Shown in pieces: positions 1,582 to 49,819 of a stretch of DNA of 64,000 nucleotides (the first letter of the stretch is position 1; the number at the start of each line of letters is the position of its first letter). A model generated the notes under the pieces. That model saw only the letters and a program-made list of their open reading frames with translations, had not been told where the DNA came from and ran no database searches. Both the position numbers and the translations under genes were made by a program. Source of the DNA: Bacteroidia bacterium. GTDB taxonomy: Bacteria > Bacteroidota > Bacteroidia > Chitinophagales > UBA2359. The stretch spans positions 40,777-104,776 of the forward strand of contig JAUHXA010000018.1 of NCBI GenBank assembly GCA_030427245.1. The letters are read 5' to 3'.

Positions 1582-3297
1582 ATGTCTCTAAAGCACGAAA
1601 TAGATGAACAAGGAGAATACAATTTTGTGATTCCCAATATTAAAGACTGGCCGATCTATGATGTAAATCAACAAAAAACCGAGTTTTTGCAGGACTTAAT
1701 AGCTCGTACAAAAGAAAAAATCAAAGAAATGGCGGGCAGTCCTAAAAAACTGCACGATATTTTGGCTCGGACTCGTTACCTCGAACAAATTCGAATTCAA
1801 GAAGAACCTTGGAGAGTGGACCCAAGTGACGACTGGAGATTTTGGCACAAAAAGGTGAGAAAAGTATTGCTAAAAAGCGCAACCCAACACAATTATGACA
1901 ACGGATTGAGTGCTTCTGAAGAGGCTATTTTTGATGACATCATCAGCCGTTATGCACACGAAATCGTAGGCAGTTTTCGCCCAAAAACTTATCATTTGGC
2001 GAGCAAAGTTTTGCCCCGTTTTCTCTCTCGATTACTCAATACTTTTTCTTCTCGAAAATTTTTCAAAGTCAAATACCGCCTCAAAGATCGCCTCAAAATA
2101 ACAGGGCAAATTGAATTGATTCGGGAATTGGCGACCAAAGGAACGCTAGTGGTTGTTCCTACACACTTCAGTAACTTAGATTCGGTGTTGGTAGGATGGT
2201 CTTTGCATACGATTGGCTTACCTGCCTTTTTGTATGGCGCAGGATTGAATTTGTTCAACAGTCGAATCTTCGGATATTTTATGAGTCGGTTAGGGGCGTA
2301 TCGTTTAGACCGAAGAAAGAAGAATCCTTTGTATATGGAAGCCCTCAAAATGTATTCACAAATTGTGGTAGAGCGAGGTTGTCACAGTCTGTTTTTTCCT
2401 GGAGGAACTCGTTCCCGATCAGGCTCAATTGAAACACGCTTGAAACTGGGGCTTTTGGGTACAATTGTCGAAGCTCAAAGGCGTAATTTTGTAGAAGATA
2501 TTCCCAAATATGGCAAGGAGCCTACTGACAGAGGCAACAAAGTCTTCATTGTTCCTTTGGTATTGAATTACCATTTTGTATTGGAAGCCAAACGATTGAT
2601 TGATCAACATTTGAAGCAAAGCGGCAAGGAGAAATACTACATTGACAAAGATGTATTTCCGAGCAGTAAGAAGGCTTATGAGTTTTTGGCGAGCATGGTT
2701 GGGGAACGCTCCGAAATCTTGCTTTCCTTTGGCAAACCTATTGACATATTTGGGCATCCTGTCGATTCAGAGGGCAATAGTTTAGATAGTAATGGCAATT
2801 TTGTTGATATCGAAAATTATTTTGTATCAAACGGTAAAATGAGTGAAGACAAGCAAAGAGATGAAGAATATACTCGTTTGTTGGGCGAACACATTTTGAA
2901 GCAGTTTTACCAATACAATGTAGTTATTTCCAGCGATTTGATTGCTTTTATAGCCTTTGAACTATTGAAGAAAAGAAATCCTAAATTTGATATTTTTGGC
3001 TTGCTCAGATTACCTGAAGAAGAACGAGTCATTGACTACAATGACTATATAGAAACAGTCGAAAAAATCAGAAAAGAACTGAATATTAGAGCAAAACTGG
3101 GAGAACTGCAAGTCGCAGATCACCTAAATACAGATATTCACCGCTTGGTCAATCATGGTCTGAGTAATATTGGATTGTACCATACCGAACGCCCTGTGCG
3201 AAAAACGGAAAATGGAGACATTACGAGTGACAACATGAATCTGCTTTATTATTATCACAATCGTTTGTTGGGTTATGAGTTGGAGAAATTGATATAG
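1582..3297 (+). CDS. 1-acyl-sn-glycerol-3-phosphate / glycerol-3-phosphate acyltransferase (PlsB-like)
   Basis: HX4D motif 'PTHFSNLDS', 'LGAYRLDRR', 'FFPGGTRSRSG'. ORF opens at 1507; in-frame ATG at 1582 (MSLKHEID) is a plausible start. Confidence 0.85.
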   Translation: MSLKHEIDEQGEYNFVIPNIKDWPIYDVNQQKTEFLQDLIARTKEKIKEMAGSPKKLHDILARTRYLEQIRIQEEPWRVDPSDDWRFWHKKVRKVLLKSATQHNYDNGLSASEEAIFDDIISRYAHEIVGSFRPKTYHLASKVLPRFLSRLLNTFSSRKFFKVKYRLKDRLKITGQIELIRELATKGTLVVVPTHFSNLDSVLVGWSLHTIGLPAFLYGAGLNLFNSRIFGYFMSRLGAYRLDRRKKNPLYMEALKMYSQIVVERGCHSLFFPGGTRSRSGSIETRLKLGLLGTIVEAQRRNFVEDIPKYGKEPTDRGNKVFIVPLVLNYHFVLEAKRLIDQHLKQSGKEKYYIDKDVFPSSKKAYEFLASMVGERSEILLSFGKPIDIFGHPVDSEGNSLDSNGNFVDIENYFVSNGKMSEDKQRDEEYTRLLGEHILKQFYQYNVVISSDLIAFIAFELLKKRNPKFDIFGLLRLPEEERVIDYNDYIETVEKIRKELNIRAKLGELQVADHLNTDIHRLVNHGLSNIGLYHTERPVRKTENGDITSDNMNLLYYYHNRLLGYELEKLI

Positions 3298-3367
3298 GGA
3301 GATAGGAAGAAGGAAATGAGAAGTGGGAGGAGAAAACGAGAATCATTCAAAATACAATATTTAAAAC

Positions 3368-4402
3368 ATGAGTTATTACGGTGTCATTGGTTCGGGAAAT
3401 TTTGGTACGGCTATGGCAAATGTCATGGCACTCAATGGAAAAGTATTGATTTATGTACGCCGACAAGAGGTATATGACAACATTTTGCATAAACGCTTCA
3501 ATAGAGGTCAAAAAATGCACCCCAATGTGCGTCCCACCTTGAGTCTGGAAGAAGTGGCCGAAAACTGCAAAATTATCGTTCCCTTAGTCCCTTCTTCCAA
3601 TTTTCGAGATATGATGAAAAAGGCTGCTCCCTGCCTTACACCTGAACACATTTTGATTCATGGAACAAAGGGGTTGGGTCTTAGCATTCCTTCAAAAACG
3701 GAGATGGACAAGGCGATTCCCCTACGACGAGAATACATCCAAACGATGAGTGACATCATACAACAAGAAAGTGTGGTCATTCGAGTTGGGTGTTTATCTG
3801 GCCCTAACCTTTCCAAGGAGATTGCCAACAATGAACCGACTGCAACAGTTGTGGCAAGTCGCTTTGATGAGGTAATTTCAAAGGGAAAGGAAGCTTTGAG
3901 AGGATCCATGTTTCGGGTTTATGGCAGTCATGATGTGCTGGGAGTCGAATTGGCAGGAGTATTGAAAAACATCATGGCCTTGGGAGCAGGTATGTTGAGA
4001 GGTTTGAATTTTGGTGAAAACTCCAAAGCTATGTTGATTTCTCGTGGCTTGGGCGAAATGATAAAACTCGGCAATGCATTAGGAGCAGATACGACTGCAT
4101 TTTTAGGTGTAGCAGGTGTAGGCGATTTGGTAGCAACTTGTTCAAGTCACCTCAGTCGCAACCATACAGTAGGATATCGCTTAGCAAAAGGAGAAGAATT
4201 GCAGGCGATTGTGACGGATATGAATCAAGTGGTGGAAGGTATCAAAACGGTACGAATAGCAAAAGGTATCGCAATGTATTACCAACTTGAACTGCCTATA
4301 GTAGAAGGATTGTATCGCGTTTTGTACGAAGGAGACAGCATAGCAAATTGTATGGAGTATCTGATGAGCCATGGTTTTGATAAGGATGTGGATTTTTATT
4401 AG
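3368..4402 (+). CDS. gpsA: NAD(P)H-dependent glycerol-3-phosphate dehydrogenase
   Basis: N-terminal GSGNFGTAMA, 'GVELAGVLKNIMALGAGM', 'GVAGVGDLVATCSSHLSRN'. Confidence 0.93.
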   Translation: MSYYGVIGSGNFGTAMANVMALNGKVLIYVRRQEVYDNILHKRFNRGQKMHPNVRPTLSLEEVAENCKIIVPLVPSSNFRDMMKKAAPCLTPEHILIHGTKGLGLSIPSKTEMDKAIPLRREYIQTMSDIIQQESVVIRVGCLSGPNLSKEIANNEPTATVVASRFDEVISKGKEALRGSMFRVYGSHDVLGVELAGVLKNIMALGAGMLRGLNFGENSKAMLISRGLGEMIKLGNALGADTTAFLGVAGVGDLVATCSSHLSRNHTVGYRLAKGEELQAIVTDMNQVVEGIKTVRIAKGIAMYYQLELPIVEGLYRVLYEGDSIANCMEYLMSHGFDKDVDFY

Positions 4403-15765: not shown

Positions 15766-15814
15766 GATGTAGGATGTAGGATGTAGGATGTAGGATGTAG
15801 GATGTAGGATGTAG
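15766..15814. repeat. heptamer tandem array (GATGTAG)x7
   Basis: Seven perfect consecutive copies counted directly. Confidence 0.97.
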
Positions 15815-15841
15815 GATAATGAGGAACAATTTCCCAATAAT

Positions 15842-30115: not shown

Positions 30116-30248
30116 CATACTACTGTACATTTTTAATTCAACCACAAAAGGTACAAAGAAAACAAAAGTAAAGAACTGAAACTTAACAGCGTCTTTTGTG
30201 CCCTTTTGATACTTTTGTGGTTCAAAAATCATTTTGTACAGTAGTATG
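30116..30248. mobile_element. 133-bp MITE (family 1), copy A
   Basis: 14-bp TIR CATACTACTGTACA/TGTACAGTAGTATG; flanked by perfect 9-bp direct repeats CTCCTAATT (30107-30115 and 30249-30257). Confidence 0.93.
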
Positions 30249-30596
30249 CTCCTAATTATGATTCAAAAAACAAACGGGTAATATATATAAATTGCTTTAT
30301 GCTTTATTCTTACAAATCAATTGATTTGGAACTAAACAATACATTTAAAACACTTTACCCGTTTCAAATTTCGTCTAATCTACTCACAAGATTTCCCGAG
30401 GTTTCGGGACAGGCATTACAGAATGACAAATAAAGAGGGTGTCATATTGTAAATATCCTGTGAGAAAATATCAATAAATTGTATCCAATGGATAAATTCT
30501 GATAAAAACAAAAAGCTAAAAATATCGGATAAATTTTTGAGAAACCTCATACATTCATTAAATTTTAAGAGCTAATTACCAGTCCACCAATCACCA

Positions 30597-34243: not shown

Positions 34244-35671
34244 ATGGAAAACGACATCAAAAAAGCTTACCAACCCAACGAATTTCGCCAAAAAGGGCAT
34301 CAACTGGTAGATATATTGGCAGATTATTTGGAGCGTTCCCAAAATCGGCAAGACATTCCCATATCTGCCTTGATTCCTCCTGAGGAAATGTTTGCAGAAC
34401 TGAATGTTGATTTAAGTAGAGCTTCAACCGACCCCATTGAAGTCCTTTACAAAACCCTTTTGGAGCATACTACGCACCTCCAACATCCGCGTTATGTGGG
34501 ACATCAGGTGAGTTCTCCCATTCCCTTGAGTGGCTTGTCTGAAATGTTGACAGGCGTGCTGAATGGCAGTGGCTCAATGTATGAAATGAGTGCATCGGGG
34601 GCTGCAATGGACAAAATCGTAGTCGGTTTTCTGCTCCAAAAATGCGGTTTTGGTGAGTCGGCAAATGGTATTTTAACTTCTGGCGGTTCTCTCGGAAACT
34701 TGACCGCACTTTTGGCTGCAAGGCAAGCAATGTCGGGCTTCGATGCGTGGGAAGAAGGTGTGGAGGGAAATTTGGCGGTCATGGTGTCAAATGAATCCCA
34801 TTATTCGGTGAGTCGTGCGGTGAAAATCATGGGTTTGGGCGAAAAAGGAATGGTAAAAATTCCGACCCAAGATGATTTTCGGGTTGATACTTCAAAATTG
34901 GAAATTACCTATCAAGAGGCTTTGAAGCAAGGCAAAAAAATCATCGCAGTAGTCGGCAATGCGTGTTCTACTTCAACGGGTTCTTTTGACGATTTGGAGG
35001 CTTTGGCGGATTTCTGCAAAAAGCATGGGCTTTGGCTACACATTGACGCAGCGCATGGCGGCGGATTGTTGCTTTCTGACAAGTACAAACATCTATTGAA
35101 GGGAATCGAAAAGGCGGATTCGGTGGTAATTGACTTCCACAAAATGATGTTGTTCCCCTCTTTGGTGACAGCCGTTTTGTTTCAGAATGGTCAAACTTCA
35201 ATGAAGTCTTTTACCCAAAAAGCAGATTATTTGGCGGTCAAAGAAGGGGCTGACAATTGGTTTGATTTTTTAAATAGAACGATTGAATGTACTCGACCGA
35301 TGATGGGTGTTCGGGTTTATACCGTTTTGCGAACCTATGGCAGTCAGGCAATTGGAAACTATGTGACGGACATTATTGACTTGACCAAACAGTTTGCCCA
35401 ACGCATCGAAGCAAGCAACGATTTTGAAATAGCCATTCAACCTTCTTGCAATATTTTGTGTTTTCGATATTTACCTTCAAATGGTGAGGACATCAATGCA
35501 TTCAATGCTAAGTTGCGTTTGAAAATGCTGGAGGACGGTCGGTTTTACATCGTTCAAACCACCATTAGAGGTCAGATTTACTTGCGGGTTTCTTTGATGA
35601 ATCCGTTCACAACGATTGAAGATTTGGAAGAGTTGTTGGAGAAGTTGAGGGAATTGGGATGTAGGATGTAG
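34244..35671 (+). CDS. PLP-dependent aromatic-L-amino-acid-type decarboxylase
   Basis: 'LTSGGSLGNLTALLAAR', 'HIDAAHGG', 'VVIDFHKMMLFP'; stop codon lies in the heptamer array. Confidence 0.9.
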   Translation: MENDIKKAYQPNEFRQKGHQLVDILADYLERSQNRQDIPISALIPPEEMFAELNVDLSRASTDPIEVLYKTLLEHTTHLQHPRYVGHQVSSPIPLSGLSEMLTGVLNGSGSMYEMSASGAAMDKIVVGFLLQKCGFGESANGILTSGGSLGNLTALLAARQAMSGFDAWEEGVEGNLAVMVSNESHYSVSRAVKIMGLGEKGMVKIPTQDDFRVDTSKLEITYQEALKQGKKIIAVVGNACSTSTGSFDDLEALADFCKKHGLWLHIDAAHGGGLLLSDKYKHLLKGIEKADSVVIDFHKMMLFPSLVTAVLFQNGQTSMKSFTQKADYLAVKEGADNWFDFLNRTIECTRPMMGVRVYTVLRTYGSQAIGNYVTDIIDLTKQFAQRIEASNDFEIAIQPSCNILCFRYLPSNGEDINAFNAKLRLKMLEDGRFYIVQTTIRGQIYLRVSLMNPFTTIEDLEELLEKLRELGCRM

Positions 35672-35706
35672 GATGTAGGATGTAGGATGTAGGATGTAGG
35701 ATGTAG
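35658..35706. repeat. heptamer tandem array (GATGTAG)x7
   Basis: Seven perfect copies; overlaps 3' end of upstream CDS. Confidence 0.97.
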
Positions 35707-41060: not shown

Positions 41061-41094
41061 GAGAAATAAAATAGAGAGTAATCATCAAAATCAG

Positions 41095-41167
41095 AGCGAA
41101 AGACGAGATTCGAACTCGCGACCCCAACCTTGGCAAGGTTGTGCTCTACCAGCTGAGCTACTTTCGC
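41095..41167 (-). tRNA. tRNA-Gly(GCC)
   Basis: Minus: GCGAAAGTAGCTCAGCTGGTAGAGCACAACCTTGCCAAGGTTGGGGTCGCGAGTTCGAATCTCGTCTTTCGCT; cloverleaf, anticodon loop TTGCCAA. Confidence 0.96.
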
Positions 41168-41342: not shown

Positions 41343-41364
41343 GACCATTTCTTATAAAGAACGG

Positions 41365-41437
41365 AGCGAAAGACGAGATTCGAACTCGCGACCCCAACCT
41401 TGGCAAGGTTGTGCTCTACCAGCTGAGCTACTTTCGC
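41365..41437 (-). tRNA. tRNA-Gly(GCC), second identical copy
   Basis: Same 73 nt as 41095-41167. Confidence 0.96.
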
Positions 41438-47620: not shown

Positions 47621-48979
47621 ATGTTGCTCAATATTAGTGAACTTCAAAACCCACCAATATTGAGCGATATGTTTTATTTGACCATTCTTCAATACTATTT
47701 TCAATTTCGTTTTCAAGCCACTTTTTCCAATAGAAAGGATTTAGAAGAATGGCAAGAACGACAAATCGAAAGAATGTTAAGAAAAATTCAAACCAATTCC
47801 CCTTACTACAAAGAACAACTTCAAAAACATTCCAATTGGCGGCAAATTCCTACAATCCAAAAAAAACAATGGATGCAGGAATTTGACCGCATCAATACAT
47901 TAAATATCCAAAAACAAGCAGCTCTCAAAGTCGCCTTGCAAGCAGAAACAAGTAGAAACTTCAGTTCTAAACTGGGAAAAAATACCGTAGGACTCTCTTC
48001 TGGCACTTCTGGAAACAGAGGTTTGTTTGTGGTAACTCCCAAAGAACGAGCGCAATGGGTCGCTTATGTCCTACATAAAATATTATCTCCCCTACAATGG
48101 CAAAAACGAAAAATTGCCTTTTTTCTTCGATCAAACAGCAATCTCTACAATTCTATGCAATCTCTTTTGTTTCGTTTTCGTTTTTTTGACCTTAAAAAGA
48201 GATTCGAAGAAAACCTTCTTCAATTAAATGAATATCAACCCGATATACTTGTTGCACCCGCCTCTGTTCTGCGGCACATTGCCAAAGAACAACAAGCTCA
48301 AACCATAAATATTCATCCCGAAAAAATACTCTCCGTAGCCGAAATATTGGAGCAAGAAGATGCCGATTTTATTCAATCCGTTTTCCAACAAATTATTCAT
48401 CAGGCCTATCAATGCACAGAAGGTTTTCTAGCCGTAACGTGTGAATATGGTATTTTGCACTTCAATGAAGACATCATCAAAATCGAACGTCAATACATTG
48501 ACGATGAGAAAAAACGCTATCATCCTATCATAACTGACTTCAATCGAATTGGACAACCCATCATTCGTTACTTACTGAATGACATAGTAATAGACAAAAT
48601 AGAACCCTGTCAATGTGGGTCTATTTTCCAGGCAATTGACCACATTGAAGGGCGATCGGATGATGTTTTTTACTTTAAAAACAAAGAAGGAAAAATCGTT
48701 ACCATTTATCCAGATTTCATTCGCCGAGCGGTGATTCTTCCCGATACAAGTATGGAAGAATATGTGGTGGAACAACTTTCACTGCAACAAATTCATGTTT
48801 TCATTCACACTTCTCATTTTCTTCAAGACCAGCAAACGCTTTTCTCGTCCTTACTGCAACTTTTTGAAGAGTACGGCATTGCAGATATCAAATTATCATT
48901 TTTTAATCAAATGCCTGTATTGAAGGATGAAAAATTGAGACGGGTGAAGCGGAGTTTTGAGATTTATACAAAAAAATAA
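47621..48979 (+). CDS. phenylacetate-CoA-ligase-like adenylate-forming enzyme
   Basis: 'TVGLSSGTSGNRGLFVVTPKERAQW', 'QCTEGFLAVTCEYG', 'PIIRYLLNDIV...CQCGSIFQAIDHIEGRSDDVFYF'. Confidence 0.85.
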   Translation: MLLNISELQNPPILSDMFYLTILQYYFQFRFQATFSNRKDLEEWQERQIERMLRKIQTNSPYYKEQLQKHSNWRQIPTIQKKQWMQEFDRINTLNIQKQAALKVALQAETSRNFSSKLGKNTVGLSSGTSGNRGLFVVTPKERAQWVAYVLHKILSPLQWQKRKIAFFLRSNSNLYNSMQSLLFRFRFFDLKKRFEENLLQLNEYQPDILVAPASVLRHIAKEQQAQTINIHPEKILSVAEILEQEDADFIQSVFQQIIHQAYQCTEGFLAVTCEYGILHFNEDIIKIERQYIDDEKKRYHPIITDFNRIGQPIIRYLLNDIVIDKIEPCQCGSIFQAIDHIEGRSDDVFYFKNKEGKIVTIYPDFIRRAVILPDTSMEEYVVEQLSLQQIHVFIHTSHFLQDQQTLFSSLLQLFEEYGIADIKLSFFNQMPVLKDEKLRRVKRSFEIYTKK

Positions 48980-48989
48980 AACTTCATCT

Positions 48990-49122
48990 CATACTACTGT
49001 ACAAAATGATTTTTGAACCACAAAAGTATCAAAAGGGCACAAAAGAGATAGATGAATTTCAGTTCTTTACTTTTGTTTTCTTTGTGCCTTTTGTGGTTGG
49101 ATTAAAAATGTACAGTAGTATG
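48990..49122. mobile_element. 133-bp MITE (family 1), copy B (inverted relative to copy A)
   Basis: Same TIRs; perfect 9-bp direct repeats ACTTCATCT (48981-48989 and 49123-49131); hand alignment to copy A has about 9 mismatches in 133 bp. Confidence 0.93.
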
Positions 49123-49180
49123 ACTTCATCTACCAAACCCAGTTAAAACTACTTTGGAAAAAGTATGCTGTACTTTTGAA

Positions 49181-49819
49181 TTACCTCTGAAATACATAAA
49201 ATTTCCCCACCAAAGGTTTACCATTTGCGGGAGTTAACTTCCAATAATACAAGCCATTGGGGTAATTCTCTTTGGGCTGCAACGAAACACTATATGCTTT
49301 CTCACCTTTCGGCAACAAGGCTCTAAAAACCCTTCCTTTGTGGTTTCGGATACTCAAATCGGCTGACTCAGTGAGCGCTTCTTCTAATTCAAAATCAAGC
49401 TGATTGAAGCAAAGCGCATTAGGAGTAGGCTTGTTTACTTTTATTTCTATTCTACCTAATTTCCGATATGCTATTTGGTTTTTTAGCAATCGCTCCATAG
49501 AAGGAATTTCCACAGCCTCCGCCATGAGTTTTTCCAAAATACGCTCTATATCTTGAGGATTGTCAGAAAGGGTAAAGTTACCTTTTGGGGAAACATTCAA
49601 GAGTGGGTGTGAAGGTAAGTCTGAATAATTCAATTCGGCAATGGCATCATACAGAACTACAATCAAGCTGCTGCAAAAGCTGCAATCATTTACGTGTTGC
49701 TGCAATGAATCGGGTAGTTTTTCGACTTTTTCCAACTGCATTGCATCCGCATATAGGGTTCTCCCTATTGTGTTTAGGTGACCTTCTTCATCAAAATATT
49801 TAGAGTAGTTTTGCTGCAT
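49181..49819 (-). CDS. putative zinc-finger anti-sigma-like protein
   Basis: 'LPDSLQQHVNDCSFCSSLIVVLYDA' HxxxCxxC; downstream of sigma-like gene on same strand. Confidence 0.6.
   Translation of the reverse strand: MQQNYSKYFDEEGHLNTIGRTLYADAMQLEKVEKLPDSLQQHVNDCSFCSSLIVVLYDAIAELNYSDLPSHPLLNVSPKGNFTLSDNPQDIERILEKLMAEAVEIPSMERLLKNQIAYRKLGRIEIKVNKPTPNALCFNQLDFELEEALTESADLSIRNHKGRVFRALLPKGEKAYSVSLQPKENYPNGLYYWKLTPANGKPLVGKFYVFQR

Follow-up and report, generated by a model that had tools for sequence, protein, structure and literature searches.

De Palmenaer et al. (2008, PMC2266710) have characterized the IS4Sa subgroup of insertion sequences (IS) by a length of 1150–1750 bp, ends of the form CA------T, target-site duplications (TSDs) of 8–10 bp and Y. 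The MITEs of P. gingivalis (BrickBuilt and MITE464/PgRS) have near-identical terminal inverted repeats (TIRs) around unrelated interiors, and these TIRs match those of resident IS (PMC4596501). MITECca01 of Cardinium is about 240 bp long and carries the ends of an IS982-family element, its apparent source (PMC9769881). A non-autonomous IS-derived element of Acinetobacter, MITEAba12, is reported as a MITE (PMC6382973). The repeat considered here occurs as two copies, A and B, in the window, that is, the whole 64-kb stretch of DNA that was analysed.

The 133-bp repeat and its copies in the host genome

The repeat is bounded by perfect TIRs of 14 bp (CATACTACTGTACA), and its two copies in the window have the following features.

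48990–49122, + strand: MITE copy B, 133 bp, without a gene
48981–48989, no strand: left target-site duplication of copy B, ACTTCATCT
49123–49131, no strand: right target-site duplication of copy B, ACTTCATCT
48990–49003, + strand: left terminal inverted repeat of copy B, CATACTACTGTACA
49109–49122, − strand (reverse): right terminal inverted repeat of copy B, CATACTACTGTACA
49016–49026, + strand: left arm of the inner palindrome of copy B, AACCACAAAAG
49088–49098, − strand: right arm of the inner palindrome of copy B (CTTTTGTGGTT on the + strand)
49047–49056, + strand: subfamily-diagnostic loop block of copy B, element positions 58–67, where A and B differ
30116–30248, − strand: MITE copy A, 133 bp, reversed, of the subfamily with ACGCTGTTAAGT in the loop
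30107–30115, no strand: target-site duplication of copy A, CTCCTAATT
30249–30257, no strand: target-site duplication of copy A, CTCCTAATT

The original prediction had read copies A and B as independent insertions of one MITE family. Its coordinates, length, orientation and TSDs were all right, and the reading is borne out by the fixed length of 133 bp, the TIRs, the differing 9-bp TSDs and the lack of coding capacity, since the single open frame that spans the element is too short for a transposase. The roughly nine mismatches it gave between copy B and the reverse complement of copy A proved to be exactly 9 in 133, seven of them within element positions 58–67 and the others at 97 and 111. The element folds far better than dinucleotide shuffles of itself (z of −7.1 and −8.6, one per strand). 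Elsewhere, the window contains perfect 7-bp tandem arrays with the common unit GGATGTA at 15766–15817 and 35657–35706, about 20 kb apart, and nearly identical tRNA-Gly(gcc) genes at 41094–41167 and 41363–41437 on either side of a tRNA-Leu(taa) gene.

The host assembly (G000) consists of 7.58 Mb in 187 contigs. It contains 10 copies identical to B and dozens more at 95–97% identity, and the resemblance of A and B is therefore not a matter of chance. Collection of the genomic copies, as had been proposed, yielded about 83 distinct ones after deduplication of the fetched loci, of which 67 are full length and 62 exactly 133 bp. The accompanying check for TSDs at the exact ends came out in favour of the family, with a perfect 9-bp duplication in 39 of the 67 full-length copies and a single mismatch in 10 more (49 of 67 with at most one). 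TIR counts in the host assembly at up to two mismatches (201, minus 36 in the control) agree with the copy number, and all the exact 14-mer TIR matches read there lie within intact or truncated copies of the element. Target sites are rich in A and T and form a weak palindrome, roughly T-W-A-T-[A-T-N5-A-T]-W-T-N-A, with the TSD in brackets. In one truncated copy (L098:1640-1746, on contig C4), the inner part has the opposite orientation to the outer arms on either side of it, as though it had been flipped at the AACCACAAAAG repeats.

The element was absent from all 60 related genomes searched; within this sample, its interior is therefore restricted to the species or its near relatives. Short matches in relatives (L060–L063) share only the inner ACCACAAAG words with the element, and those in another genome (CATACTACTGC in G001) are repeated, apparently coding sequence that does not contain it. 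BLAST of the MITE against phages and plasmids gave no match. The repeat shows the features of a MITE, namely a length within 50–1000 bp without a transposase, TIRs, TSDs of fixed length and high copy number; an autonomous partner sharing these ends, which the genome of a MITE usually but not necessarily contains, was not found there. We conclude firmly that the 133-bp repeat is a genuine mobile element, non-coding and of MITE type. The family is new, the tested 14-mer TIR sequences not being found in the literature searched, and its kind is ordinary.

Shared ends and IS4-type elements in Bacteroidota

A search for the exact 14-mer in 399 genomes of the order gave scattered single matches, and only one genome (G200) had three. 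Two of these three are elements of 121–123 bp with the same ends, 9-bp TSDs and an unrelated interior. Among the matches listed for selected genomes and for the GTDB collection, the end CAYACTACTGKACATTTT occurs in Saprospiraceae, Lewinellaceae (including Neolewinella antarctica and N. aurantiaca), Phaeodactylibacter, other Chitinophagales, Microscillaceae, Bernardetiaceae and Cytophagales. At least 70 distinct elements of 71–436 bp have these ends and a 9-bp TSD with no more than one mismatch. Their interiors form at least 23 clusters that show no mutual similarity at the chosen threshold, the window family being entered as its consensus. The most interesting and unusual feature is this sharing of ends by many unrelated, mostly palindromic, exchangeable interiors. 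Nested palindromes that include GACCTATAAGGTTTTTGGAAACC words occur in two larger elements (L222:6976-7411 and L292:3078-3470, 393–436 bp) whose ends and TSDs are the same. Six TIR matches in viral contigs had no partner end and were set aside. Two viral contigs (L372 near 5612 and L375 near 6343) carry free-standing hairpins of MITE-interior words (AACCACAAAGGCACAAAG and its inverted partner) without CATACTACTG ends.

The first parent-type element was found in N. antarctica as a complete IS of 1190 bp on a contig of 1191 bp (L325), with the ends CATACTACTAGACATTTT and CACACTACTAGACATTTT and a single transposase of 371 aa that matches NF033591 (IS4_2) at E 7e-37, below the curated cut-off, and PF01609 at 7e-17. 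Four other contigs of this species end inside copies of the IS, and their flanks pair as perfect 9-bp TSDs (GGAGGCAAG and GTTTTTGGC); the IS therefore makes 9-bp TSDs. Perfect 9-bp TSDs also flank complete relatives, whose ends are related too, at L357 (ACGGACTCT) and L360 (CCTTCTAAT), in Persicobacter (L366 and L369), in Spirosoma (L367, with CAGACTACTGGACA ends) and in Bernardetia (L368, with TACAGTACTGGACA ends), which brings the complete elements to six, in addition to the two joined pairs of contigs. An element in a genome from the same family as the window's (L361 in G008) has CACACCGCTATACATT ends and a TSD with one mismatch. The parent-type IS are 1190–1255 bp long, most have CAYACTACT on both sides, and eight of the nine transposases aligned carry the YREK signature Y-2-R-3-E-6-K. 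As regards the ends, which otherwise have the form CA------T, the Bernardetia copy (TACAGTACT) is an exception. The parent type fits IS4Sa, an assignment made by tabulated features as distinct from tree placement with ISfinder members.

The ends of the IS and of the MITEs agree over 19 bp in N. aurantiaca (CACACTACTCTACATTTTT), and in N. antarctica each zero-mismatch pair of MITE ends combines a CAC end with a CAT end, as the IS itself does. An IS with exactly CATACTACTGTACA was not found, the IS elements seen differing at position 10 or 11. Similarity between MITE and IS is limited to about 14–19 bp of the ends, and the MITEs are therefore not simple internal deletions of the IS elements seen. 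Other candidates were rejected. In the host genome, an IS1634 element (L113), an IS4 remnant (L115) and a pseudogene (L114) were examined, none of which has the TIR at both ends, and matches to NF033592 (IS4_1) in G200, G316 and G388 are without the TIR. An exact direct duplication of 397 bp (L113:716-1112 and 3112-3508, on contig C146) flanks the IS1634-family element (562 aa, NF033559 at 1.6e-118) and includes a fragment of the 133-bp MITE; long, variable duplications are reported for IS1634 in the title of a study cited in PMC2266710.

The repeat, a non-autonomous MITE, was very probably mobilised by an IS4-family transposase of IS4Sa type that was supplied in trans. This reading draws on sequence comparison, namely the TIRs, the 9-bp TSDs, the copy number, the subfamilies and the presence in related Bacteroidota of IS4-family elements that share these ends and this TSD length. 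The transposase, acting in trans, would recognise ends of about 14–19 bp (CAYACTACTRKACATTTT and variants), and each move would duplicate 9 bp at a weakly palindromic site rich in A and T. Because no gene for it was detected in the host assembly, we infer the resident enzyme, whose gene may have been lost or may lie in an assembly gap. Its interior is an exchangeable palindrome, in our view tolerated or kept as harmless between genes, and copies would survive mainly at intergenic, especially convergent, positions.

Placement, hairpins and alternative explanations

Copies appear to avoid genes and to favour convergent intergenic gaps. Only eight of 62 classifiable sites lie inside a called ORF, though coding sequence makes up about 87% of the window. 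There are 19 copies in convergent gaps, compared with 4 in divergent ones (p = 3e-5 relative to the intergenic lengths in the window), figures that rest on crudely called ORFs and on one 64-kb window as the baseline. Of the 35 sites that lie no more than 40 nt from the end of a gene, 25 adjoin a 3' end and 10 a 5' end. Copy B itself directly follows a stop codon at 48979, and the opposite gene ends at 49181.

The original prediction had raised the question of whether the repeat acts as a terminator or small RNA, an idea that finds no support here. Functional RNAs or regulatory hairpins of this kind (bidirectional terminators or small RNAs), spread and kept by selection for the hairpin, would agree with the strong folding of the element, with the excess of convergent over divergent sites and of 3' over 5' ends, and with the folding of 18 of the 23 unrelated interiors at z below −2 (median −5.0). 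Against them, a scan of 48900–49250 detected neither a U-run terminator, with its GC-rich stem and following T-run, nor a promoter-like site, and none of the Rfam families came close to its gathering score. Copies in tandem gaps, moreover, show no preference for 3' ends (11 vs 20), and avoidance of genes and promoters accounts for the placement equally well. Loss of harmful insertions explains the placement at least as well as a role in termination.

The same prediction had taken the concentration of divergence in the loop to suggest constraint on the stem arms. Among the 62 full-length copies used for the divergence analysis, the central block is indeed more diverse (0.117 at the central 12 positions vs 0.019 in the rest of the interior), but this reflects a small number of shared variants by which subfamilies are distinguished (AGATGGTTGAAT with 26 copies, AGATAGATGAAT with 11, AGGTTATTGAAT with 9, and others). 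Copy B belongs to the subfamily of 11 copies and copy A to a small one (ACGCTGTT...) of three full copies. Private (singleton) changes per position amount to 0.44 in the loop vs 0.28 in the arms (p = 0.32), and to 0.68 in the TIRs. A check for covariation in the stems, also proposed at that time, had a negative outcome. At the predicted pairs 237 cells are changed; in 114 of them the pairing is lost, in 123 a one-sided substitution leaves it compatible, and in no case is there a compensatory (double) change of the sort expected of a structured RNA. With loop variants shared by subfamily, no significant excess of private changes and no compensatory changes, the inferred stem constraint is unsupported. 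Selection for a functional RNA or regulatory hairpin is an unlikely account of the family.

Target duplications of 9 bp can also be produced by IS1, the IS903 group of IS5 and ISLre2. Mobilisation by one of these other DDE families would be in line with the lack of a detected IS4Sa-type transposase in the host assembly, but we consider it quite improbable, since in its ends, TSD length and conserved end positions the repeat agrees with IS4Sa-type elements of several genera, and the loci read contain no other transposase bearing these ends. Copying of the repeat as a REP/BIME by a RAYT (Y1 HUH) transposase, which a short palindromic intergenic repeat in high copy might suggest, is scarcely credible, because REP/RAYT elements are recognised by the absence of target duplication and Y1 HUH enzymes are not known to make any, whereas here perfect 9-bp TSDs with perfect TIRs point to a DDE cut-and-paste enzyme and the same ends are found on an IS4-family element.

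Comparison with known systems

With mobilisation by an IS4Sa-type transposase, the repeat would gain a type of mobilising partner. A testable rule also follows, in which these ends together with a 9-bp duplication mark IS4Sa-driven MITEs across Bacteroidota, many of them seemingly unrelated by interior, and with this rule a large class of hairpins between genes could be annotated. It raises the question of why palindromes predominate among interiors that share one set of ends. One tentative answer, which we regard as possible though rather doubtful, is that the IS4Sa-type end pair has repeatedly captured hairpins from a broader class of free-standing repeats (with words such as ACCACAAAGGCACAAAG, ACGCAAAGACGCAAAG, ACACATAGGCACATAG and CACGCAGAT), at least one of which is also known without the ends, so that the hairpin would be a selected, exchangeable cargo and not debris of the parent IS.

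MITEAba12 is reported to be a non-autonomous, IS-derived bacterial MITE, like the element in the window non-autonomous, with a host among the Moraxellaceae instead. MITECca01 is likewise a short, non-coding MITE of Bacteroidota with IS-like ends and high copy number, but it differs in its size of about 240 bp and in its IS982-family ends and apparent derivation. The parent-type elements resemble IS4Sa in their size of 1190–1255 bp, CA------T ends, 9-bp TSD and full YREK, whereas the window element differs in having no transposase. The MITEs of P. gingivalis, also in Bacteroidota, offer a smaller precedent, with common ends over unrelated interiors as here. Those elements have IS5-family ends, tandem-repeat interiors and no uniform 9-bp TSDs, whereas the family described here has a probable parent of IS4 type and interiors that are mostly hairpins.
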